The position numbers and the translations under genes are program-made. A stretch of 16,528 nt of DNA. Origin: Methylovulum sp. GTDB lineage: Bacteria > Pseudomonadota > Gammaproteobacteria > Methylococcales > Methylomonadaceae. The DNA is taken from NCBI GenBank assembly GCA_028713595.1, contig JAQTNZ010000001.1, positions 23,616-40,143 on the forward strand, in the 5' to 3' direction. This document shows positions 4,269-16,528 of the stretch, in pieces (the stretch's first letter is position 1; the number at the start of each line of letters is the position of its first letter). The notes beneath the pieces were generated by a model. It had not been told where the DNA came from, ran no database searches, and worked only from the letters and a program-made list of their open reading frames with translations.

Positions 4269-4451
4269 TTAAAAACGTGCCGGGAGCAATTCCTCCACTG
4301 TCCGCGCATACACCGCCAGCGACTCGCTGTCTATTTCCCGCAGGGCCTTCTTGTTTTCCACGGGGGTGCTCAGGTCGGCCATCATCCTCAGCAGGTGCTT
4401 GGCGATGCTGATGTTGTTGGCCTCGTCATCGGTCAGTTCCATGATGCTCAT
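4269..4451 (-). CDS. Small hypothetical protein downstream of KilA-N
   Basis: This 60-aa acidic, helical protein (MSIMELTDDEANN... ending EELLPARF) is not one I recognise. The start ATG at 4451 overlaps the KilA-N stop as ATGA, so it is translationally coupled to it; AAGGCGG upstream is a fair ribosome-binding site. An internal ATG at 4442 (MELTDDE) is an alternative. It is the last gene before a strong terminator. Coupling suggests it works with, or modifies, the KilA-N protein. Confidence 0.7.
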   Translation of the reverse strand: MSIMELTDDEANNISIAKHLLRMMADLSTPVENKKALREIDSESLAVYARTVEELLPARF

Positions 4452-5098
4452 GCCGCACCGCCTTGGCCGGGCAAACGGGCGGTGTCGGCACAAACGCTGA
4501 AACCGCATCCGCGCAGACGTTTGACGGCCCTGTAGACTGCGGAATTGCCCAAGCCCAGCATTTCGCCGATCCGGGCTTGCGAATAGCCCAAGCGGGTCAG
4601 GTTCAGCACGTCTTTCAGGGAGGGGTTGGCTTTCAGCAGTTCGGCTTGCAGGGCGGCGAAGTGGGTGGGGATGGTATAACCTTGCGCCAAGGCGGGGCGT
4701 TCCAATCGGTATTGCCCGTCCGGGTGCAGGTAGTATGTGGCAAGTTCGTCATCGGGGTCAGGCTGGGTGGCTAACGCGTCGTAAGCACGGATAACTTGCA
4801 GGCTGAATTTTGGGCTGATCCACATGGCATAGGCGTAAACAATTTCTTTTGCAACGTAAGTACCAGGAGCTTTGCCGCCATTTACAACTTCAACAGCAGT
4901 CCTCATTTCTGAGGAGTGACTTCTCATATCTGAGCAACGACTAATCTCTTCGACAAGCTCTTTAGTAGTGGCAAGCCGTAAGAAGTTTGCGGGTTGGTGC
5001 TTTGAATTATCGCCCGCTGCTTTATGCAGATCGTTAAGGCAGTAGCGACCTTGATTGTCTTGGCGGATATGGGTATTGGAAATGGATAGTGTGTTCAT
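4448..5098 (-). CDS. KilA-N domain protein, probable phage antirepressor / DNA-binding regulator
   Basis: This 216-aa protein has a KilA-N domain at about residues 8-108 (IRQDNQGRYCLNDLHKAAGD at the front; the AKEIVYAYAMWISPKFSLQV helix with conserved W93 and F98). A C-terminal helix-turn-helix lies at about 165-197 (LGYSQARIGEMLGLGNSAVY). KilA-N proteins include phage antirepressors that inactivate the lysogeny repressor. The start is set at ATG 5098, since AGGA lies 8 nt upstream; longer reading depends on a TTG. The ribosome-binding region is complementary to the loop of an RNA hairpin about 70 nt upstream (see 5161-5221), pointing to antisense control. Mu itself has no such gene, so this looks like an acquired immunity module. 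Confidence 0.87.
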   Translation of the reverse strand: MNTLSISNTHIRQDNQGRYCLNDLHKAAGDNSKHQPANFLRLATTKELVEEISRCSDMRSHSSEMRTAVEVVNGGKAPGTYVAKEIVYAYAMWISPKFSLQVIRAYDALATQPDPDDELATYYLHPDGQYRLERPALAQGYTIPTHFAALQAELLKANPSLKDVLNLTRLGYSQARIGEMLGLGNSAVYRAVKRLRGCGFSVCADTARLPGQGGAA

Positions 5099-5104
5099 GA
5101 TGAA

Positions 5105-5113
5105 TCCTAGAAT
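5105..5113 (-). promoter_or_regulatory. Antisense target at the KilA-N ribosome-binding site
   Basis: On the minus strand this reads ATTCTAGGA and contains the AGGA Shine-Dalgarno element of KilA-N. It is the exact complement of the hairpin loop sequence TCCTAGAAT at 5180-5188. Pairing would block ribosome entry. Confidence 0.6.
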
Positions 5114-5131
5114 AAATTCAAGATTCTGACA

Positions 5132-5149
5132 CCATGAGACCAATCATGG
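5132..5149. repeat. Inverted repeat in the KilA-N leader
   Basis: CCATGA and TCATGG arms with a 6-nt spacer, between the C4-like RNA and the KilA-N start. It could be an operator or a leader hairpin. On the minus strand it also contains an ATG opening a 9-codon leader ORF (ATG at 5147, stop before the KilA-N start), in the place where icd lies in P1. Confidence 0.35.
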
Positions 5150-5160
5150 GTGCCAGACTG

Positions 5161-5221
5161 GACGAGGTTGGCCTACCGGATTCTAGGAACCGGCCACTCT
5201 TGCGAGTGCCTCACCCAGCCC
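5161..5221 (-). ncRNA. C4-like antisense RNA candidate controlling KilA-N
   Basis: On the minus strand, from GGGCTGGGTGAGG, two hairpins follow each other. Hairpin 1 is CACTC-GCAA-GAGTG (5195-5208). Hairpin 2 has CCGG arms (5176-5179 and 5190-5193) and a 10-nt loop holding TCCTAGAAT. This loop is perfectly complementary over 9 nt to the KilA-N ribosome-binding region. A second short match, TGGGTG (5212-5217), pairs with CACCCA (5147-5152) in the leader. Two hairpins, location just upstream and on the same strand as an antirepressor-type gene, and two short complementary segments are the hallmarks of the C4 RNAs of phages P1 and P7. A weak promoter (TTATGC, 17 nt, CATTAT; -10 at 5225-5230) would start transcription right at the RNA's 5' end. 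The family assignment is from memory of the family's design, not from a search. Confidence 0.65.
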
Positions 5222-5246
5222 GACATAATGACGAGCAAAAGTGATA

Positions 5247-5281
5247 CGCATAAAAAAACCGCAACTGCGGCGGCTTATGCG
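5247..5281 (-). terminator. Intrinsic terminator after the RTX gene
   Basis: On the minus strand CCGCA-GT-TGCGG (5270-5259) runs straight into seven T residues (5258-5252). An outer pair of arms (CGCATAA / TTATGCG) extends the structure, so it may also act on the plus strand. It separates the RTX unit from the C4-KilA-N unit. Confidence 0.8.
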
Positions 5282-5307
5282 CCTAGAAAAACCGAGAGGC
5301 CAATCCC

Positions 5308-5331
5308 GTGCGCTGGATTTTGCCAGCGCAC
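5308..5331. repeat. Perfect hairpin between RTX stop and terminator
   Basis: Perfect 9-bp arms GTGCGCTGG and CCAGCGCAC around a 6-nt loop. There is no T-tract on either strand, so it is not an intrinsic terminator itself; it may protect the 3' end of the RTX message or mark the edge of an inserted cassette. The rest of the 277-nt gap (5099-5375) holds the C4-like RNA and the terminator. Confidence 0.6.
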
Positions 5332-5375
5332 AATTAGATTAGCATCCCGTTTAGGTTTGTCAATAAATAAAAATG

Positions 5376-6029
5376 TTAAAGCACCAAGTTAGCATCCTGT
5401 AAACTTATGACACCGCTCAATTTCACAGAAAATTCAATGCTTGAAAAATCGTTATCTGTATTAGCAATTAAGCTATTGGTAGCGGCATCAAATTTTATTT
5501 GTCCCGCCGCCCAAAAATCGCTTTGGTCATCAATCCTTACGAATGACTCATTGATTTTTGTAGTTAGTTGGTTTGCATCCATATACGACAAATCAAGTAT
5601 GTCATTGTTGCCAAAGTTTTTTATGACATCCTGGGTTTTTTGGCTTGTCCATGATTCGGCAGCGTCATAATAAAAAAATGTGTCTTGATTGCCGCTACCG
5701 ATCATCGTGTCCTTACCCATGCCGGGAATAAAGCTTCCCCATCCAGTCATAACGTCATTTCCATCGCCGCCTTCAAAGTAATTGTAACCGCTTCCACCAT
5801 TGAGATAATCGTTGCCGTTTCCACCAATCAAATTATCAGAGCCATTGCCTCCAAATAAGCGGTCATTACCGTCACCGCCAAACAAATAATCATCGCCTTT
5901 TTCTCCATAAATTAAATCGTTTCCACCGTTTCCTTGGATATTGTCATTGCCGTCACGACCATAAATTTCATCATCAGCCTCTGTTCCAGGCATATAGTCA
6001 TTATTTTTCGTACCAATTAATTTAGCCAT
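5376..6029 (-). CDS. RTX calcium-binding repeat protein without a catalytic domain
   Basis: This 217-aa protein opens with MAKLIGTKNNDYMPGT and carries about eight nonapeptide RTX repeats of the GGxGxDxUx type at about residues 23-95 (for example GGDGNDRLF, GGNGNDYLN), which bind calcium in a parallel beta-roll. The remainder (about 100-217) resembles the C-terminal secretion region of serralysin-type RTX proteins (VIKNFGNNDILDLSYMD, then DGQ/AGQIKFDAATNSL-like strands). There is no N-terminal signal peptide, in line with type I secretion. No protease, lipase or toxin domain is present. AGGA lies 8 nt before ATG 6029. RTX genes are not part of the Mu core, so this is probably a cargo gene or an inserted moron, perhaps a secreted or particle-associated adhesin. 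Confidence 0.88.
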   Translation of the reverse strand: MAKLIGTKNNDYMPGTEADDEIYGRDGNDNIQGNGGNDLIYGEKGDDYLFGGDGNDRLFGGNGSDNLIGGNGNDYLNGGSGYNYFEGGDGNDVMTGWGSFIPGMGKDTMIGSGNQDTFFYYDAAESWTSQKTQDVIKNFGNNDILDLSYMDANQLTTKINESFVRIDDQSDFWAAGQIKFDAATNSLIANTDNDFSSIEFSVKLSGVISLQDANLVL

Positions 6030-6060
6030 CGTTTGTTCCTATAAGTTATTGATAAGTTGA

Positions 6061-6453
6061 TTATTGCTTAACGCCGCTGAACTGGTCGCCCACATAAGGG
6101 TTGCCGGACTGCCAGGCCATGCCGCTGATCGAGTCCTTGCCCTTGCTGATGTAGGCCTCCACCTGACGGCCATCAGCGCCCACGGTGATGTTGCCGTAAA
6201 CCCGGCAATCGCTGGCGATGTTCAGGTTGCCGCGCAGGCTGACGGTCGCCACGCCGGGCAACCAGCAGGTGGAGGTGGTGCCGATGGCGGTGCCGCTGCC
6301 GGGCATGGACAAGGTGCAACGGCCCACGCTGTTGAACACGGTAAACAGCCGCCAAGCCCCGGTAAGGTCGGAACGGGTGCAGGTGGCGGCATGGCCGCCT
6401 ATCGGCAACAGCAGCGCCAAGGCGGCTAATAAGGCATTGGGTTTTAATTTCAT
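6061..6453 (-). CDS. Small secreted protein of unknown function
   Basis: This 130-aa protein begins with a clear Sec signal peptide (MKLKPNALLAALALLLPIGGHA, cleavage likely after GGHA, residue 22). The mature part has five or so cysteines and a beta-rich pattern (for example ATVSLRGNLNIASDCRVYGNITVGADG) suggestive of a small disulfide-bonded beta protein. I do not recognise a family. ATG 6453 is chosen because AGGA lies 5 nt upstream and the signal peptide starts there; the longer reading from 6603 runs through the hairpin and promoter region. It shares a unit with the RTX gene 31 nt downstream, so both probably supply extracytoplasmic products. Confidence 0.75.
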   Translation of the reverse strand: MKLKPNALLAALALLLPIGGHAATCTRSDLTGAWRLFTVFNSVGRCTLSMPGSGTAIGTTSTCWLPGVATVSLRGNLNIASDCRVYGNITVGADGRQVEAYISKGKDSISGMAWQSGNPYVGDQFSGVKQ

Positions 6454-6500
6454 AAAAATCCTGATTTTGGGTTGGAATAACCGTGCAATACGGCGGTGAC

Positions 6501-6539
6501 AGTATAACCAAACGCCCACAATGAAACTATTAACTATTA
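6501..6539 (-). promoter_or_regulatory. Candidate activator-dependent (Mor-type) middle promoter
   Basis: On the minus strand TATACT (6501-6506) matches the sigma-70 -10 box at 5 of 6 positions but has no recognisable -35. Nineteen bases upstream lies a perfect tandem repeat of TAATAGT (6526-6539), about -33 to -46 from the expected start. In Mu, Mor binds upstream of Pm in this same position, replacing -35 contacts. It lies just beyond mor and would drive the secreted protein and RTX genes. Confidence 0.45.
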
Positions 6540-6560
6540 CCTTTTTAGGTTTTCTTACAA

Positions 6561-6587
6561 CCCATCCGCGCCCAAAACGCGGATGGG
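6561..6587. repeat. Perfect 10-bp hairpin after mor
   Basis: Arms CCCATCCGCG and CGCGGATGGG around a 7-nt loop (CCCAAAA); outer ACAAC/GTTGT segments could extend it. There is no T-tract on either strand. It lies 25 nt past the mor stop and may stabilise the 3' end of the early transcript or act with Rho. Confidence 0.6.
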
Positions 6588-6611
6588 GCCGGTTGTGGTT
6601 CATGTCCCCTC

Positions 6612-7028
6612 TTAGGGGGTGGTCAAAAAATCATCAAACAGGTCAAGGTTGTCGGACACCCTCACGCCGCCCAGGCGGGCGCGGATGCGGCGGATGGTGC
6701 GTTCGGTGGTGCGGTATTTACGCGCCAACTCGCAGTCAGTCAGCAGCTCCGATTCGGCTAGGATGTGTTGGTCTTTCAGCGTCCGCACCGCCCTTTTGCA
6801 CAGGGGGATGTCCAGATAGGTGTCGCCGGCATAGCTGCACAGTTTGGCAAACGCCACGGTGCCGACCACTTCGGCGACCGGATGGCCTTGGCGGCTTTTT
6901 TTGGGTATCCAGATGGCGGTGCCGCCGTAGGACTCGACTAATGTTAAGGTTTCGGTCAGGCCGATCAGGTCGATCAGCAGCAAGATGCTGGCGGGGAGCA
7001 GGTCGGCAAGGCCGTCGTCAATGGTCAT
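6612..7028 (-). CDS. mor: Mor-type transcriptional activator (Mor/C family)
   Basis: This 138-aa protein resembles Mu Mor (129 aa). An N-terminal helical dimerisation region (about 8-35, LADLLPASILLLIDLIGLTE), a strand segment around the GG turn (ESYGGTAIWIPK, 32-43) and a C-terminal helix-turn-helix (about 95-117, LLTDCELARKYRTTERTIRR) match the family. Mor binds upstream of the middle promoter and recruits RNA polymerase. It is the last gene of the early operon, coupled to the upstream gene by an ATGA overlap with GGGGGA as ribosome-binding site. No separate C gene is seen in the window, so Mor may control both middle and late units. Confidence 0.9.
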   Translation of the reverse strand: MTIDDGLADLLPASILLLIDLIGLTETLTLVESYGGTAIWIPKKSRQGHPVAEVVGTVAFAKLCSYAGDTYLDIPLCKRAVRTLKDQHILAESELLTDCELARKYRTTERTIRRIRARLGGVRVSDNLDLFDDFLTTP

Positions 7029-7600
7029 TGTTCCCCCTTAGGTTTTCGGGCGGCCTTGATGGCCTGTTCAAGTTTTGCAATTTGCGGCAACAACGCTTCG
7101 TCCCTGCTTTGTTCGTGCAGTTTTTTAATGCCCAGCAACTGGTTGGTTAAGCGGTTTATCACCAAGTTTTTCTCGTTGTTGGCAACGGTCTTGGTTGGGG
7201 TAAAGTCCAAGTAGCGTTTTTCATACAGCCAGCCTTCGGCCATTTTCCGCACTTGCCCAGGTATCAGTTCGCGTTTGGCTTCGGCGCTGGCCGCGTCAAT
7301 GATTTGCTGGTAGTCAGCATCGCTTAAATCACCCAGTTGGCTCCAACGCATCGCCGCATTCTCACGACCTTTTTTGTGGGCAAAGGCCACCCAAAAACCG
7401 TCAAACCAGCGCCGTTGCCTATCGCCCAATTCGCGGTACCAGTCTTTCCCGCCACGCGGTTCGTGGGGCTTGTCATCGCCGTACCCCACGTTGGTCAACC
7501 ATTGCCACAGGTCTTCGGCATACGCCAAGGCGGCGGCGCGTTTGTCAACCGTTGGCAAGGAACGGGCAATCACGGACTGGACAAAGCGTTTTTTGCTCAT
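7025..7600 (-). CDS. Phage protein with a replication-protein-like C-terminal motif
   Basis: This 191-aa protein has a central segment (about residues 65-130) with the pattern FDGFWVAFAHKKGRENAAMR ... IPGQVRKMAEGWLYEKRYLDF. Many phage replication and DnaT-like proteins share this layout: an aromatic 'FW..Y..K.g...A...W' helix, a run of helices, then 'IP....WL...rW.D'. The C-terminal 40 residues are a charged helix, possibly a coiled coil. It may interact with replication proteins, but the exact role is unknown. One GTTGGCAAC palindrome copy (7178-7186) lies inside. Start ATG 7600 follows the upstream stop at 7601 without a gap. Confidence 0.6.
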   Translation of the reverse strand: MSKKRFVQSVIARSLPTVDKRAAALAYAEDLWQWLTNVGYGDDKPHEPRGGKDWYRELGDRQRRWFDGFWVAFAHKKGRENAAMRWSQLGDLSDADYQQIIDAASAEAKRELIPGQVRKMAEGWLYEKRYLDFTPTKTVANNEKNLVINRLTNQLLGIKKLHEQSRDEALLPQIAKLEQAIKAARKPKGEQ

Positions 7601-7882
7601 TTACCCCCCGTTGGCCTTAGCCACCTGCGCTATTCTTGCCAGCTCAAACGCTTCTTCTGCCGAACCGCATAAACGGCTTTCCATCAGGCTATCAGGGCAA
7701 TAGTGCTTGAGGGATTCACAGAGCAGGGCGGTGCGTTCGGCATTAGCCACCACGGCGTGGATGCCGTCCTGCCAAATCTGCCCAAATAACGCCCCGCCGT
7801 TTTCCAGCTGTGCAAATAACGGTTTCAGTTGCGCCAATTGTTCACCCGTCAACGGGATAAGCACATTTTTAAGCCCACTCAT
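7601..7882 (-). CDS. Hypothetical protein after gemA
   Basis: This 93-aa helical, soluble protein (MSGLKNVLIPLTGEQLAQLK at the start) is not one I recognise. Start ATG 7882 overlaps the gemA stop as ATGA, with AGGTGG upstream. No motif, signal or membrane segment is visible. Position between gemA and mor in the coupled early operon suggests an accessory early function. Confidence 0.7.
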   Translation of the reverse strand: MSGLKNVLIPLTGEQLAQLKPLFAQLENGGALFGQIWQDGIHAVVANAERTALLCESLKHYCPDSLMESRLCGSAEEAFELARIAQVAKANGG

Positions 7883-12542: not shown

Positions 12543-12762
12543 TGCCAGCCGCCTTAATGCTCCGATAGCCCTTATCGGTAAGTTTGATAATGTCATCGGG
12601 CAAGAAGCCGGATGCCTCAATCATTTCCCTAGGGTCTCCGTCATCGCCTAATTTCTGCATGACCCGTGTCGCCATTTCCAGCATCATCAATTGTCCGCCA
12701 GCCTCTAGCAGCACCGATTTGATGGTGATTCTCATAAGTGCGTGTAGGGTTTCAATGTGCAT
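12535..12762 (-). CDS. Hypothetical protein
   Basis: This 75-aa helical protein starts at ATG 12762 (MHIETLHALMRITIKSVLLE). GAGG lies 7 nt upstream, and the longer frame beyond it overlaps a better-supported small gene. The C-terminus (SGFLPDDIIKLTDKGYRSIK) resembles the end of a winged-helix or a short helical bundle, but no family can be named. Confidence 0.65.
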   Translation of the reverse strand: MHIETLHALMRITIKSVLLEAGGQLMMLEMATRVMQKLGDDGDPREMIEASGFLPDDIIKLTDKGYRSIKAAGND

Positions 12763-12781
12763 ACTCAATCCTCTTTTAAAA

Positions 12782-12937
12782 TCAGTTGCAGCCACATTCT
12801 TGTTCATAAGGGTCCATATCCGTTTCTTCACAGTCATGACAAACCCATACCGATTCCTCACCTTGGGTGGCGTATCTTGAGTATTTGCCCTTATCTTCAA
12901 GCCAAATACACCCACCTGTAATTTCTTGATAATTCAT
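12782..12937 (-). CDS. Small cysteine-rich protein, possible zinc binder
   Basis: This 51-aa ORF (MNYQEITGGCIWLEDKGKYS at the start) begins in a TGATG overlap with the stop of the gene upstream, with AAGG ahead. Cysteines at 10, 33, 36, 48 and 50 (VCHDCEE and ECGCN) could form a zinc knuckle. It is too short for many gene finders and lies in a frame different from the longer open frame at the same place. Function is unknown. Confidence 0.6.
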   Translation of the reverse strand: MNYQEITGGCIWLEDKGKYSRYATQGEESVWVCHDCEETDMDPYEQECGCN

Positions 12938-13230
12938 CACAGCCCTTCTTTTTTCAATTGCGCTTCGTAAGCAACCTGACGGGCTGTATAAGCCTGGGTT
13001 TTTGCATAATCAGCATGGCTAATCCAACGGGCGATAACGATTAGATTGCCCTCCAAATCCCCCACCCATACCTGTTCGCCCAAGTCCGTTTCATCCCAAA
13101 TCACCAACAAATCTTGGCCTTCATAAGCCATCAGCTTTTCAGAGAAAAACAGCTTGTAATTAGCCTCAACAGTGCAGCCTGCACACTTTTTTACGACTGG
13201 GTCTTTTACTTCCTTCACCTCAGCTACCAT
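12937..13230 (-). CDS. Stand-alone Mu transposase C-terminal-domain-like protein
   Basis: This 97-aa protein, starting at ATG 13230 (GGGAG 7 nt upstream, 11-nt overlap with the transposase stop), resembles the C-terminal beta-barrel of the transposase next to it. Its YEGQDLLVIWDETDLGEQVW and VGDLEGNLI align with WEGKEVVVSYDIMDYRQVW and VMDLQGALI in the transposase, and both continue into an Ala/Arg/Gln-rich helix. The front carries CxxC (KKCAGC). It has no catalytic domain. In MuA the corresponding region helps assemble the transpososome, so this could be an accessory or inhibitory partner. The homology is judged by eye. Confidence 0.7.
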   Translation of the reverse strand: MVAEVKEVKDPVVKKCAGCTVEANYKLFFSEKLMAYEGQDLLVIWDETDLGEQVWVGDLEGNLIVIARWISHADYAKTQAYTARQVAYEAQLKKEGL

Positions 13231-15610
13231 AATCAATCTCCCGTCTTACAGGCTTTTCAGCCTCATCTTCATCAGTGGAAAAATACTTCAGCCACGTCTC
13301 CGTTGCGGTCAGTTGCTGAGGTTCTTCCGGTTCTTGTTCCGCCACCTTGGCATACAGTTCGTCCATTGAAATCTTTGGCGTGACGGCAGGGGCATCAATC
13401 GTGTAATCCAACACCCGTGTGGCGGTACTGTCGATCACCTCAGCGGTATCCAGCCCAGCGCGTTTCTCAACCGTGTCGATTTTCTTTTCAAGGCGGCGGA
13501 TTTGCGCCAATGCCCGTGTTTCTTGGGCGGCATCCGCTGCTGTCTGCGCCCGATAACGGCAAGCTTCATCAAGCGGGGCTTCGCAAATCAACGCGCCTTG
13601 CAAATCCATTACCCAGACTTGGCGATAATCCATGATGTCGTAAGAGACGACCACCTCCTTGCCTTCCCAGTGATCCAGTTCCTTATGGCGAAACCGTGGG
13701 CCATCCGCGCCGCCGTAGGGCTTGACCACCCCGCGCCGCACGAATTTTTTGGCGCGGGGGCGGAACAAATCGACTAGGCTTTCTTCGTCCATCTCGACCG
13801 GCTTCCAGCCATTGGCCTTCCATTCGTCCAAAGCCTCTTGGGGGCTTTGGTGACGCATCTTGCCGCTAACGCCGTCCCGCACTTTCTTAAGGGTGCTGTG
13901 CGGTTTGGCATTCCACTTGATGCGTATGCTTTCCAGCCAATCAATGGCTTCTTGGTAGGTTTGGAAAATCAGCCCTTTTGAGGTTTTCGCCAGGTCTTTG
14001 CTGATGTCGGCCACGGCTTGGCCGTCTTCATTAGCCTTGGCCTTGACCAATTTTGCCGTCAGCTTCTGGGTGCGGCGCAGGGTCAGGCTGTCCATGCCCT
14101 TGGCTTGGTAAGTGCCCAGTACGCGGCACTCTTTATCAATCCAAGAGTGGAAGTTTTCCGCAATCCCGTTGGTTTGCCCGCTCCCGACAATAACCGGATG
14201 CGTGATGGTGATGCCCGCCATGTCGGCGATCGACAGCACCGGATTGCCCGTAAACTTCACATTGTTTTTCACGATTTTGGTCGAATCGGTCATCAATATC
14301 GCCATGACCCCGCCAAAACGGATGGCATTTTCAATGCCCTTGGCAATCACCTCGGTGTTCTCAGTCAGTCCTATGGAAAAGGGCGGGATAAACCGCGTGG
14401 CGACATCATGAAAATCCCATAATTCGTAAGTCACATACTCGCCCGTGACTGGGTGCGGTGCGGTAAAGTGCGTGTTCCATCCGTCCGCATGGACTTCGTC
14501 CCAAGGCTCCATACCGTCCGCCGTGCGTTTTTTAAAATACTGCAAGGCGCGGAGCTGTTGTCCGGTATTCCGACCTTTCAGTATCTCGCTTTGGCTAAAT
14601 TTCTTATTGAAAAAACGAACCACTTGATTGTAAGTTGGCGGCGGGATAAACAGCTTCTGCAACTCCGCCACTACCGCCGTGTAGCAAGGCTTTTGGCCCC
14701 GGCAGTACAGTTTTATTGCCATGTCATACCAAGGTTTTATGCTTAAATCCTTTTGCTTTTTCTTAGGCATGTAACTGCCGGTGACGGCTTTGCGTTGCCG
14801 CCAATTGATTAGGGTTCGGTGCGGTAAAATAGGGCCATCCTTGCGCTTTTTTTCCTTGCAGTTGTCTAGCGCAAAAACTAAGGCGGTTGGCAGGGTTCCG
14901 GCGGCATATCCTTGGTTGATGTATTTAACGGCAGCCGTTTCGCTGCCGTTAAAACCTTCAATGAACCGGAAAATGACCTGAATGGCGCGGTCTATTTTTC
15001 GTTGCTCTTCTGTACTTCCAGCGTATGCTGTATGTGGATGTATAGATCGTGCATCAGAAATTGCGCCAAAGTTTTTCCCTTTATCGTCAGTTGCCAAACC
15101 TGTTGGCTCTCGCTGAGTATCACCAACCCCATCCGCTCCAGCTCTACCGCCTGAAGCATTTCCAGCAGTATGTGATAAGGCAGCAGAGGGGCTTGTTTTA
15201 ACGATTCCTTTTTCGGATATCTCTTCACGGGTAATGAGACCTCGTTGCATTCGTGGATTAGCAGCCCCGTTAACAGCATTGCCTGTAGCACTGTCAGCTC
15301 TGACCGCATTGCCGAAAACTCCACTATCTGCTCTATCGTTATCCCCTCCGGCATTCTTGGCGGGATCATTTCTTGATTGTTCTTGACCATAAATCTTCTC
15401 TACGTATTGGTTAAAAAGAGCCTCATGATAGCTTCTTTGGGCATGTTCAGGCAGGCTGGACAGCTCAATTTCGTAACGTAAACCGCCTTTTCCACCCTTG
15501 GCTGGGACTTGGCGGGTAGTGTATTTATCGGCCTTACAAGCCTTCTGTATGGCCTGTTTTGATACCCCTAAAAGGTTGGCAACTTCACTAACCGACAAAA
15601 ATTCACTCAT
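13220..15610 (-). CDS. DDE transposase, MuA family
   Basis: This 796-aa enzyme cuts and joins phage ends during replicative transposition. Domains: an N-terminal helix-turn-helix (1-65, FLSVSEVANLLGVSKQAIQK), a low-complexity linker (about 78-200), a second DNA-binding region (about 200-345), the RNase H-like catalytic core (about 365-500) and the C-terminal beta-barrel (about 640-700) with a helical, charged tail. The catalytic triad appears intact: D376 (HADGW), D442 (MTDST), E485 (IAENF). MuA is 663 aa; the excess is largely the linker and tail. A good AAGGA lies 8 nt before ATG 15610. The linker is unusual: A/G/N/D/S/T-rich, and its DNA holds an open +1 frame (14992-15390). Confidence 0.95.
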   Translation of the reverse strand: MSEFLSVSEVANLLGVSKQAIQKACKADKYTTRQVPAKGGKGGLRYEIELSSLPEHAQRSYHEALFNQYVEKIYGQEQSRNDPAKNAGGDNDRADSGVFGNAVRADSATGNAVNGAANPRMQRGLITREEISEKGIVKTSPSAALSHTAGNASGGRAGADGVGDTQREPTGLATDDKGKNFGAISDARSIHPHTAYAGSTEEQRKIDRAIQVIFRFIEGFNGSETAAVKYINQGYAAGTLPTALVFALDNCKEKKRKDGPILPHRTLINWRQRKAVTGSYMPKKKQKDLSIKPWYDMAIKLYCRGQKPCYTAVVAELQKLFIPPPTYNQVVRFFNKKFSQSEILKGRNTGQQLRALQYFKKRTADGMEPWDEVHADGWNTHFTAPHPVTGEYVTYELWDFHDVATRFIPPFSIGLTENTEVIAKGIENAIRFGGVMAILMTDSTKIVKNNVKFTGNPVLSIADMAGITITHPVIVGSGQTNGIAENFHSWIDKECRVLGTYQAKGMDSLTLRRTQKLTAKLVKAKANEDGQAVADISKDLAKTSKGLIFQTYQEAIDWLESIRIKWNAKPHSTLKKVRDGVSGKMRHQSPQEALDEWKANGWKPVEMDEESLVDLFRPRAKKFVRRGVVKPYGGADGPRFRHKELDHWEGKEVVVSYDIMDYRQVWVMDLQGALICEAPLDEACRYRAQTAADAAQETRALAQIRRLEKKIDTVEKRAGLDTAEVIDSTATRVLDYTIDAPAVTPKISMDELYAKVAEQEPEEPQQLTATETWLKYFSTDEDEAEKPVRREIDYGS
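14992..15390 (-). CDS. Possible overprinted gene inside the transposase linker (winged-helix-like product)
   Basis: On the same strand, one base ahead in frame relative to the transposase, an ATG at 15390 opens 132 codons ending in TAG. A TAG lies 12 nt upstream, so this ATG is the natural start; GAGAAG lies 4 nt before it. The product looks like a real folded protein: hydrophobic helices (LTVLQAMLLTGLLIHECN, YHILLEMLQAVELERMGLVI) and a wing-like pattern ending QVWQLTIKGKTLAQFL. CTG dominates its leucine codons. The transposase frame here is only a low-complexity linker. It could still be a chance open frame, but composition favours a gene. Confidence 0.5.
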   Translation of the reverse strand: MVKNNQEMIPPRMPEGITIEQIVEFSAMRSELTVLQAMLLTGLLIHECNEVSLPVKRYPKKESLKQAPLLPYHILLEMLQAVELERMGLVILSESQQVWQLTIKGKTLAQFLMHDLYIHIQHTLEVQKSNEK

Positions 15611-15708
15611 AACACTATTCCTTTATTTTTCCTGTAGTTATGAGTTGCCAACTACGTCATCAAGTTGGCAACTTTGGTTGGCAACTTGCTCTTCTGAGTT
15701 ACCAACCT
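15574..15708. repeat. Cluster of five GTTGSCAAC imperfect palindromes
   Basis: Copies at 15575-15583 (GTTGGCAAC), 15644-15652 (GTTGCCAAC), 15664-15672 (GTTGGCAAC), 15677-15685 (GTTGGCAAC) and 15698-15706 (GTTACCAAC). Centre spacings are 69, 20, 13 and 21 bp. They span the end of the small DNA-binding gene, the gap and the transposase start. Likely a multi-site operator or a transposase internal activation sequence. Confidence 0.65.
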
Positions 15709-15892
15709 CAACACCAGATTCTTTTATTAAAAGATCACGCAATTCTTTGCCTTTTTGCCCTTTCCATATACCTAAAAGGGCATCTCTGGCATTTTGTCTC
15801 TTAACTCCTTTAGCCAAGCACCATTTATGTAAAGAAGATTGCTTACTAACAAAAGAAGCCTTAACGCTTGCGTATAGTTGTTTGTTTGTCAT
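15638..15892 (-). CDS. Small DNA-binding regulator (Ner / BcepMu gp16-like position)
   Basis: This 84-aa protein is the first gene of the early operon, opposite the repressor, where Mu has ner. Residues about 14-60 read as a helix-turn-helix (LHKWCLAKGVKRQNARDALL, then GIWKGQKGKELRDLLIKESG), close in style to the gp16 family of BcepMu. Ner-type proteins turn down early and repressor transcription. The last 25 residues encode the palindrome cluster and are low in complexity, so they seem shaped by DNA-level needs. Start ATG 15892 has AGGA about 10 nt upstream. Confidence 0.7.
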   Translation of the reverse strand: MTNKQLYASVKASFVSKQSSLHKWCLAKGVKRQNARDALLGIWKGQKGKELRDLLIKESGVEVGNSEEQVANQSCQLDDVVGNS

Positions 15893-15906
15893 TACGGGTT
15901 TATCCT
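15878..15906 (+). promoter_or_regulatory. Weak candidate repressor promoter
   Basis: TTGTTT (15878-15883) and TATCCT (15901-15906) with a 17-nt spacer on the plus strand. A start near 15913 would fall in the operator palindrome, face to face with the early promoter, as in Mu where repressor and early promoters converge. Matches are weak. Confidence 0.35.
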
Positions 15907-15907
15907 G

Positions 15908-15922
15908 TGTTCAACTTGAACA
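15908..15922. promoter_or_regulatory. Operator palindrome between repressor and early operon
   Basis: TGTTCAACTTGAACA is a perfect 7-bp-arm palindrome around one central base. It lies just downstream of the early -10 box, over the expected start site, in the 39-nt gap between the divergent genes. It is the best candidate site for the S24 repressor. Confidence 0.7.
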
Positions 15923-15924
15923 TG

Positions 15925-15953
15925 ATGATAGATGGATATTACGACAATGTCAA
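15925..15953 (-). promoter_or_regulatory. Early promoter (Pe-like)
   Basis: On the minus strand TTGACA (15948-15953), a 17-nt spacer and TATCAT (15925-15930) form a near-consensus sigma-70 promoter. The expected start, about 15918, lies in the operator palindrome. It would transcribe the small regulator, transposase and the rest of the early operon. Confidence 0.8.
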
Positions 15954-16528
15954 ATACAACGATGCAATTTACGTCAACTGGAAAAAGGATTGCTTTCTTA
16001 AGAAAAGAAAAAAGCCTTTCACAACAGGGATTTGCGGATTTTTTAGGGGTTAGTAGGAGTTATTTAGCAGATATTGAAAGAGAAAGAAGCGAACCTTCTT
16101 CCAATTTCTTGGTGCAATTAACGACAAAAATGGATGTAAGTACCGACTGGATATTAACCGGTCAAGGAGAAATGCTGAAAAATAAGCCGTCTATTGCATC
16201 CTCTCTTAAGGAAAATATACTTACCCCGGAAGACCTAGGGATAGAAGTGCAATACAGCTCGTATGACCCGTCTTTTGCTGATTCTGGGCAGGTTGCAACG
16301 CAAACACAGGGACAAAAAAACAACTATCCCGTTGATAAGAATAAGGAAGCATGGGAGCAATTTGCCTTAGTGCCTCTTTATGATGTCGAAGCGTCGGCGG
16401 GTTGGGGCAGGTTGGTGGATCAGGAGCTTAAAATAAGCGATATGGCGTTTAGGACGGATTGGTTGGCTGCAAGGGGCTTAAAACCCAGCCATTGCGCTCT
16501 AATCAGGGCGCGGGGGGATAGTATGGAA
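15947..16528 (+). CDS. S24-family phage repressor with N-terminal helix-turn-helix (cut by window edge)
   Basis: The frame is open to the right edge (194 codons from ATG 15947). Residues about 10-75 form an HTH_3 domain (KRIAFLRKEKSLSQQGFADF, then FLGVSRSYLADIERERSEPS). A linker rich in Gln/Ser (about 80-135) leads to the LexA/CI-type peptidase domain: A151-G152 in VEASAGWG is the probable self-cleavage site and S192 in RGDSME the nucleophile; the catalytic lysine lies beyond the window. This is a lysogeny repressor likely sensitive to RecA, unlike Mu c. ATG 15932 and 15962 are alternative starts; none has a clear ribosome-binding site. Confidence 0.88.
   Translation, partial: MSNTTMQFTSTGKRIAFLRKEKSLSQQGFADFLGVSRSYLADIERERSEPSSNFLVQLTTKMDVSTDWILTGQGEMLKNKPSIASSLKENILTPEDLGIEVQYSSYDPSFADSGQVATQTQGQKNNYPVDKNKEAWEQFALVPLYDVEASAGWGRLVDQELKISDMAFRTDWLAARGLKPSHCALIRARGDSME

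Follow-up and report, generated by a model that had tools for sequence, protein, structure and literature searches.

A C4-family antisense RNA in an IsrK-terminator-C4-KilA-N cassette of a Mu-like prophage from Methylovulum, likely silencing KilA-N

Phages P1 and P7 carry the small RNA C4 in their immI operon (c4-icd-ant), where it has been described as repressing ant in trans or as an antisense RNA (P1 and P7 records; PMC8546580, cited, like all papers given by PMC number, from excerpts) and where it is a processed RNA (PMC5320573; cited in PMC11143913). In a second system, isrK-orf45-anrP of Gifsy-1, a stable ~80-nt species called STnc1160 arises from the read-through RNA, and supplying IsrK in trans increases the translation of anrP ~140-fold (PMC4825925). 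The changes C159U and C162U lift basal anrP from 4 to 926 and 484, respectively, the a1 changes G28A and G31A, made in cis, bring basal AnrP up from 4 to 93 and 218, and the double mutants give 327 and 224 (PMC4825925). Since G28A and G31A raise rather than lower basal AnrP, a1 is not simply a cis decoy. The Gifsy-1 authors proposed a cis structural switch, found that the growth arrest by IsrK was not relieved by constitutive STnc1160 (the C4 part), and likened IsrK to SeqA and STnc1160 to CI of phage P4; the terms “C4 RNA,” “Citron,” and “bacteriophage P1” do not occur in that paper, in which we saw no comparison with P1 C4 (PMC4825925). The P4 CI immunity itself is described as premature termination (PMC4825925, citing P4 papers). 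For Acinetobacter baumannii, many C4-like RNAs per genome have been reported as Group 1 sRNAs, with a coverage consistent with RNase P cutting (PMC5320573), and a 2025 review lists IsrK and c4 as separate entries (PMC12197685, excerpt).

Here, we describe a cassette of this kind in a Mu-like prophage. The window, i.e., the whole stretch of DNA that was analysed (16,528 nucleotides), comes from Methylovulum sp., a genus placed in the Methylococcales, which are methane eaters, and the host is likely a methane-eating bacterium. The assignment to a Mu-like phage is based on MuA, MuB, Mor, a Mu-type gp27, and a lysis gene, which follow the Mu order on one strand; it is the MuA-type transposase (13220-15610, minus strand; PF09299 at 2.6e-10, phrog_310 at 5e-77) that places the cassette in a Mu-like prophage. 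The gene of interest (4448-5098, minus strand) encodes a 216-aa KilA-N domain protein (PF04383, 4.5e-23), a predicted antirepressor, which among the PHROG families matched phrog_129 (transcriptional regulator, 1.2e-45) and phrog_2127 (anti-repressor, 3.4e-16). The opposite end of the early region has a divergent CI-type repressor gene (15932-16528, plus strand; PF07022 Phage_CI_repr at 1.5e-5, HTH_19 at 5.5e-12, and phrog_4, a transcriptional repressor family, at 6.8e-27), which is cut because the 40-kb contig ends at the window end. A preliminary description of this DNA had named an S24 repressor at this place: A CI-type repressor gene does lie there, but an S24 domain was not seen in the part within the window, and an S24 part, if any, would lie beyond the contig end. 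We presume that this CI-type repressor is the target of KilA-N. Two further minus-strand genes lie nearby, one just upstream of the cassette for a 217-aa protein of RTX calcium-binding repeats (5376-6029; PF00353) and one between Mor and the RTX gene for a 180-aa protein that gave no Pfam or PHROG match (6061-6603).

Directly upstream of KilA-N, the stretch 5146-5230 (minus strand) matched the Rfam C4 model RF01695 over its full length with 69.8 bits, against a cut-off of 45. It folds as the C4 cloverleaf at -40.4 kcal/mol (z = -4.4; 1 of 200 shuffles was equally good), a form made of a closing stem and two hairpins that is kept by covariation: Across 25 C4s, 19 of the 27 stem pairs were altered on both sides, which none of 500 shuffles reached. 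The RNA is thus a member of the known C4 family, and the preliminary description, which had pointed to minus-strand hairpins at this position, read them as a C4-type RNA, and proposed the search with the Rfam model, was borne out in all of these respects. By analogy with P1, the mature C4 is predicted at ~5224-5149 (minus strand), with its ends transferred from the P1 annotation (c4, 48343-48419). At the expected RNase P cut, a G was present in 268 of 268 C4s, where the window reads GTC versus GGT or GGC in 228 of them. Two accompanying proposals were dropped. A weak promoter had been placed at the 5′ end of C4, but a scan of 5050-5500 yielded no minus-strand promoter-like site, and C4 is processed in P1 and P7; similarly, a leader open reading frame resembling icd had been read from the ATG at 5147, but this frame is only 9 codons long and found no support. 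The frame from the ATG of C4 itself, as read from the sequence, stops inside C4 in the window.

The RNA carries two short words that find their complements twice, all on the minus strand. The word b′ (TCCTAGAAT, 5188-5180) occupies a hairpin loop closed by a CCGG/CCGG stem and forms 9 Watson-Crick pairs with its target b2 (ATTCTAGGA, 5113-5105), an exact 9-nt complement that covers the KilA-N Shine-Dalgarno sequence, containing AGGA six bases 5′ of the KilA-N ATG at 5098. This complementarity had been recognised beforehand, and its coordinates proved exact. In addition, b′ forms 7 pairs with the word b1 (TTCTAGG, 5282-5288), a target copy that lies within the upstream IsrK RNA. The word a′ (AGGCCAA, 5174-5168) forms 7 pairs with a second target copy in IsrK, a1 (TTGGCCT, 5297-5303), and matches a2 (TTGGTCT, 5143-5137), directly 3′ of C4, where 4 consecutive pairs are Watson-Crick and 7 are obtained only with one G-U. 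When the b′ loop of the window was compared with 204 foreign leaders, only 1 paired as stably as its own leader, and an exact run of at least 8 was seen with just one of them, that of L242, a relative with a nearly identical loop; including the flanking stem bases, however, the b′ duplex energy was unexceptional, as 30% of 400 random foreign-leader draws were equally low. For a′, 13 of the 204 foreign leaders scored equally well. A different second segment, 5212-5217 with 5147-5152, had been suggested at the outset. It is a literal 6-nt match, but it does not stand as a pairing with a target, since both pieces are the stem and tail of C4 itself, and such runs of at least 6 occurred in 7 of 268 C4s. 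The conserved second segment is instead a′ (5168-5174) with a2 (5137-5143), and the isrK RNA, its terminator, and the a1 and b1 words had no place in the preliminary description.

The upstream half of the cassette is an IsrK-family RNA (5252-5329, minus strand; RF01394 at 56.7 bits, cut-off 50). The c4-a1b1 motif model RF03163 gave 33.1 bits at 5289-5342 (minus strand), below its cut-off of 46.7, though the a1 and b1 words themselves are present. IsrK ends in an intrinsic terminator (5256-5276, minus strand), a hairpin followed by a T run, which was located by a terminator scan and by the end of the isrK model. For the transcript of IsrK, C4, and KilA-N, we predict a promoter, TTGACA-16-TAATCT (5336-5363, minus strand), which was read from the sequence and has the same position as the annotated P1c4 promoter; its -10 element, TAATCT, is a poor one, and the site is not called by the consensus scan. 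Among 12 window-type cassettes, TTGAC followed by A, C, or G was found at this site in 10, and TAATCT or TAAGCT in 6. Because the isrK RNA upstream ends in a terminator and carries both target words, C4 is probably cut out of a transcript that starts at isrK. A search for an operator common to the cassette promoter and the repressor region found none: GTTCAACTTGAAC occurred exactly only at 15909-15921, and a GGATGCTAAY repeat at 5338 and 5388 was weak, with one copy within a coding region.

The described systems were scored with the same models. The C4 model gave 68.8 bits for P1, 69.6 for P7, and 69.0 for Gifsy-1, the isrK model gave 79.3 bits for Gifsy-1 and 35.1, under the cut-off, for P1, and in P1, P7, and Gifsy-1 all four word classes matched at a run of at least 6. 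The P1 record annotates a1, b1, c4, a2, and b2 at the corresponding places, and the annotated P1 promoter ends just 5′ of the isrK start. With the C4 of P1 and P7, the window shares the fold, the order a1-b1-C4-a2-b2, the geometry, and the position of b2 on a Shine-Dalgarno sequence. It differs in its words, in its payload (KilA-N versus Ant1/Ant2), and in its host element, a Mu-like prophage; moreover, P1 has icd between b2 and ant, and in P7 icd comes after C4, whereas b2 in the window lies on the KilA-N start itself. The latter feature is found again in Gifsy-1, where isrK is followed by C4 in the same order and b2 lies on the start of the antirepressor, although that payload is an ORF6N protein and that element is not Mu-like. 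Another difference is orf45 of Gifsy-1 (45 codons, nt 107 to 241), whose start codons lie within C4 and which runs through it, whereas the corresponding frame of the window stops inside. A frame of this type can be set aside as a general mechanism, because among 202 unique loci it ran on to the following gene in just 100. To place the published Gifsy-1 mutations, 80 transcription starts were tried, only one of which fits 14 of the nucleotides numbered in PMC4825925; by that numbering, G28 and G31 fall in a1 and C159 and C162 in a′, with G28/C162 and G31/C159 as the compensating pairs.

The likeness extends to phage P4, whose CI RNA (seqA-CI-seqC; record X51522, 8420-8507, minus strand) matched the C4 model with 74.9 bits and has a2 and b2 in the same places; an a1 or b1 run of 6 was not found in P4 at the usual distance. 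The 9-nt b2 match of P4 falls on the Shine-Dalgarno sequence of a 65-codon frame starting at ~8365, and on account of this pairing P4 CI may also block translation. The C4 of P1 and P7, the C4 of Gifsy-1 isrK-orf45, and P4 CI are therefore one model family, within which the C4 model cannot discriminate between blocking of translation and termination.

The 26 loci of the genus pointed to a general rule, namely that the complements of a′ and b′ recur twice, in the IsrK region (a1, b1) and in the leader (a2, b2). We built our own C4 model (R1) from 25 sequences, which gave 267 hits in 294 loci, with some places represented twice; of these hits, 265 had usable flanks, yielding 202 unique cores. 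In these, a run of at least 6 with the own word was found in 92% for b′-b2, 81% for b′-b1, 94% for a′-a2, and 94% for a′-a1, compared to 14, 19, 19, and 23%, respectively, with swapped words, and in each of the four word classes 0 of 2000 permutations reached the observed mean. We then defined recognition as at least 6 Watson-Crick pairs for b′ and at least 6 pairs, with G-U allowed, for a′. Among 205 unique cores (the 202 and three further Mu-like loci), the own leader was recognised in 186, the own IsrK region in 164, and both in 152, where it should be considered that the loci share ancestry and that many viral ones were found via an isrK-like pattern, which may favour the upstream match. 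By the same rule, 19 of the 205 miss their own leader and 41 their own IsrK region; among the window-type cassettes, the b2 run was shorter than 6 in 3 of 12.

A better guard against ancestry is provided by pairs of cassettes with like backbones, a test that counts pairs rather than events and includes near-duplicates. Among 330 pairs with backbones at least 85% alike and mutually incompatible b′ words, there were 255 in which each member matched its own b2 and 208 in which each matched its own b1; in the analogous test of a′ against a2, both matched their own word in 89 of 100. Loop and target therefore change together, across the 205 unique cassettes as well as in a sister Mu-like prophage (see below), which is the covariation that the preliminary description had asked to look for. 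That most C4 words are matched to their own cassette suggests why the words differ so much between the C4 copies of the order. The matches also have a constant geometry: The median start of a2 is +3 nt and that of b2 +35 nt after C4, and the start codon lies 51 nt (46-54) past C4 in the 191 of 202 loci with an open reading frame. For the 177 cassettes with both b2 and an open reading frame, the median distance from the b2 end to the start codon was 9 nt (10-90% range, 7-10.4), and in 92% it was 3-14 nt. Hence, b2 lies on the ribosome-binding site, as in P1. Selection for orthogonal words within one genome was considered and rejected, as cross-recognition occurred in 10 of 230 ordered pairs and 965 of 5000 shuffles were as low.

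Within the genus of the window, a sister prophage (L234, from genome G009) carries a different cassette on a closely related backbone. Of its 15,890 bases, 15,294 correspond to the public contig JACXTQ010000171 of a Methylovulum sp. MAG. Its DNA aligns with the window in blocks of 83-92% identity, with the exception of 4464-5869, which comprises the promoter, IsrK, C4, the leader, KilA-N, and most of the RTX gene, of 15526-16528 with Ner and the repressor, and of two further gaps (12738-12933 and 14710-15436). At the protein level (best tblastn stretch), 11 of the 12 other compared proteins were 79-100% identical (MuB 100%; gp27 99%; gp28 98%, over 99 residues; endolysin 96%; h7025 95%; Mor 93%; Gam 91%; gp16 and h6061, the 180-aa protein, 89%; the MuA body 87%; orf4269 79%), versus 46% for KilA-N, where 51 of 100 aligned residues within the domain and 29 of 101 beyond it were shared. 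The first 79 residues of MuA were 57% identical, the repressor showed 26% over 70 residues and 78% over 18 residues near the cut end, and no credible protein match to Ner was obtained in L234. The C4 words of the sister, TCCGTTGAA and CTACCAA, match its own IsrK and leader. As side observations, its RTX protein is 52% identical, the gene being partly inside the nonaligning block, and a repressor-like helix-turn-helix frame (14643-15328, plus strand) appears to stop before a separate stretch that carries a repressor-like C-terminal motif, as read from the sequence.

In a viral relative with 92% MuB identity (L337), the cassette and the first part of the repressor did not align, nor did 4454-7621 and other places, whereas alignments were obtained for Ner (74%) and the final part of the repressor (80%). 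A joint exchange of cassette and repressor thus rests on L234 and partly on L337, and immunity regions vary anyway. In the distant L338 and L342, isrK-C4 was among the few aligning stretches (78 and 69%), and the words thus change on a conserved RNA backbone; L343 and L345, also compared, had no C4.

C4 is widespread in the order, where it was found in 115 of 251 genomes, and in 11 of 20 genomes of the genus, including that of the window; two genomes held 13 (G084) and 10 (G047) matches. Among 204 larger loci compared with the Mu-type proteins of the window, at least 2 such proteins together with C4 were found in L234, L036, L125, and L266, and C4 was present in 3 of 6 viral MuB relatives. It was absent from the 4 strong genome relatives, from a Methylobacter locus (L348), and from all 9 named Mu-like records (Gregale, 3927AP2, RcapMu, SuMu, ST405-OXA48phi1.1, RR1-B, D3112, Mu, and B3). 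Being present in some Mu-like relatives and missing in others, C4 cassettes are recurrent but optional in Mu-like phages.

The genes that follow C4 are diverse. The 191 genes 3′ of C4 fell into 53 sequence families by single linkage, and among 169 representatives, we found the domains Bro-N (31), Rha (16), ORF6N (16), KilA-N (12), AntA (5), and P22_AR_N (5), single cases of RadC, AlpA, and S24, and many without a family. This diversity argues for a portable lock. KilA-N relatives were in turn a poor route to C4: Only 4 of 41 viral relatives had one (L165-L168), and in these it came after the KilA-N region; C4 therefore has no fixed tie to KilA-N. Many of the payloads are short proteins without a Pfam family, and such genes may be leaders of a second gene. 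Unrelated payloads (e.g., in L007, L244, and L239) begin with a similar stretch of the type M-x-x-H-A-x-N-P-A, as though the leader extended into the start of the coding sequence. Cassettes also occur in tandem, as in a viral contig with four spaced ~850 bp apart (L092, 2351-4994, minus strand) and in a genome with three ~950 bp apart (L250, 8900-10925, plus strand), and another contig held four (L248, 3394-18196, plus strand); cross-recognition was seen in 0 of 12 pairs in L092 and in 1 of 12 in L248.

Taken together, 5146-5230 (minus strand) is very probably the C4 of an IsrK-terminator-C4-KilA-N cassette of a Mu-like prophage, likely silencing KilA-N through pairing of a′ with a2 and b′ with b2. 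Repression of KilA-N by C4, as predicted from the words and from the analogy with P1, is well supported. In the mechanism that we propose, a single promoter at ~5336-5363 would produce one transcript, part of which would halt at the terminator after IsrK, whereas the read-through copies would bear C4 and the KilA-N message. RNase P would excise a C4 of ~76 nt, as in P1 and P7. This RNA would prevent translation of KilA-N both in cis and in trans, with a′ on a2 and b′ on the Shine-Dalgarno sequence in b2, so that the C4 of a lysogen would also silence an incoming phage with the same words. IsrK would bind C4 via a1 and b1, and rising IsrK would tilt the switch to KilA-N, as IsrK raises AnrP in Gifsy-1. 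Lastly, we infer that KilA-N would then inactivate its presumed target, the CI-type repressor encoded at the far end of the early region. Such a decoy role of IsrK is likely in trans; in cis it is at odds with the a1 mutants of Gifsy-1, and these mutants together with the STnc1160 result suit a simple decoy less well.

Other modes of action can be weighed against this translation block. As in P4, the C4-type RNA might pair with the upstream and downstream words to stop transcription ahead of the gene, with the translation block being secondary. The C4 match of P4 CI, with its a2 and its 9-nt b2 on the next Shine-Dalgarno sequence, speaks for this, as do the terminator after IsrK and the published likening of IsrK and STnc1160 to SeqA and CI (PMC4825925, excerpt), but in 92% of 177 cassettes b2 ends 3-14 nt ahead of the start codon, a placement not required if transcription merely stopped, and we consider a P4-like mode rather unlikely. 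We also regard as unlikely, and slightly more so, that the cassette is mainly a cis switch within the long transcript, alternating between structures A and B of Gifsy-1, in which the leader would be sealed in cis and a free C4 would be unneeded. In favour of this, structure A is restored and AnrP is lowered in the double mutants of Gifsy-1 (PMC4825925, excerpt), and 164 of 205 unique cores have IsrK words that match C4; yet the Gifsy-1 orf45 starts within C4, while a frame from the C4 ATG runs on to the following gene in just 100 of 202 loci and ends inside C4 in the window, C4 is described as acting in trans or as an antisense repressor of ant (P1 and P7 records; PMC8546580, excerpt), and a processed ~80-nt species is reported for Gifsy-1 (PMC4825925, excerpt).

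It is very improbable, in our judgment, that this copy of C4 is a relic, or that it was recruited to regulate host messages, as was proposed for the A. baumannii Group 1 RNAs. C4 is indeed abundant in the order (115 of 251 genomes, up to 13 per genome), and differences in a′ between copies have been used to argue for new host targets (PMC5320573, excerpt), but the differing a′ words found here are matched by their own a1 and a2 (94% each of 202), and the window words match their own leader and IsrK; whereas host targets were proposed for Group 1, most cassettes here match their own leader. Finally, chance hairpins with chance complementarity can account for lone 6-nt matches such as 5212-5217/5147-5152 (7 of 268), but as an explanation of the cassette they have a negligible probability, refuted by two Rfam matches over their cut-offs and by the word permutations (0 of 2000 in each of the four classes). 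The preferred reading thus remains a C4 that blocks translation of KilA-N.

Three things seem new: that Mu-like phages use such an RNA, that many cassettes obey a three-way word code, and that C4 and IsrK are linked. In the open-licence papers searched, we found no report of an antisense RNA with an antirepressor in Mu-like phages nor of a small RNA with a KilA-N antirepressor, and for C4 antisense RNA with an antirepressor, only work on P1vir (PMC8201110, excerpt); the “antirepressor” of a transposable phage in PMC4378225 (excerpt) is ner. Gifsy-1 isrK-orf45 and P1 C4 are shown to form one family of switch, and RNA-based immunity would extend from P1, P7, P4, and the Gifsy phages to Mu-like phages. 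For the latter, to our knowledge, generally only the protein repressor has been considered. We tentatively propose, with chances that we judge to be nearly balanced, that C4 and IsrK are the halves of one exchangeable RNA immunity lock, that this lock is swapped jointly with the repressor in Mu-like phages against a largely similar remaining genome, and that its words help to define superinfection immunity groups of transposing phages. Such a lock would consist of a two-word key that is written three times, as antisense, decoy, and target, before swappable regulators. If true, it would constitute a second immunity layer not described for Mu, and the three-way word code would predict, from the two C4 words, which incoming phage a lysogen silences.
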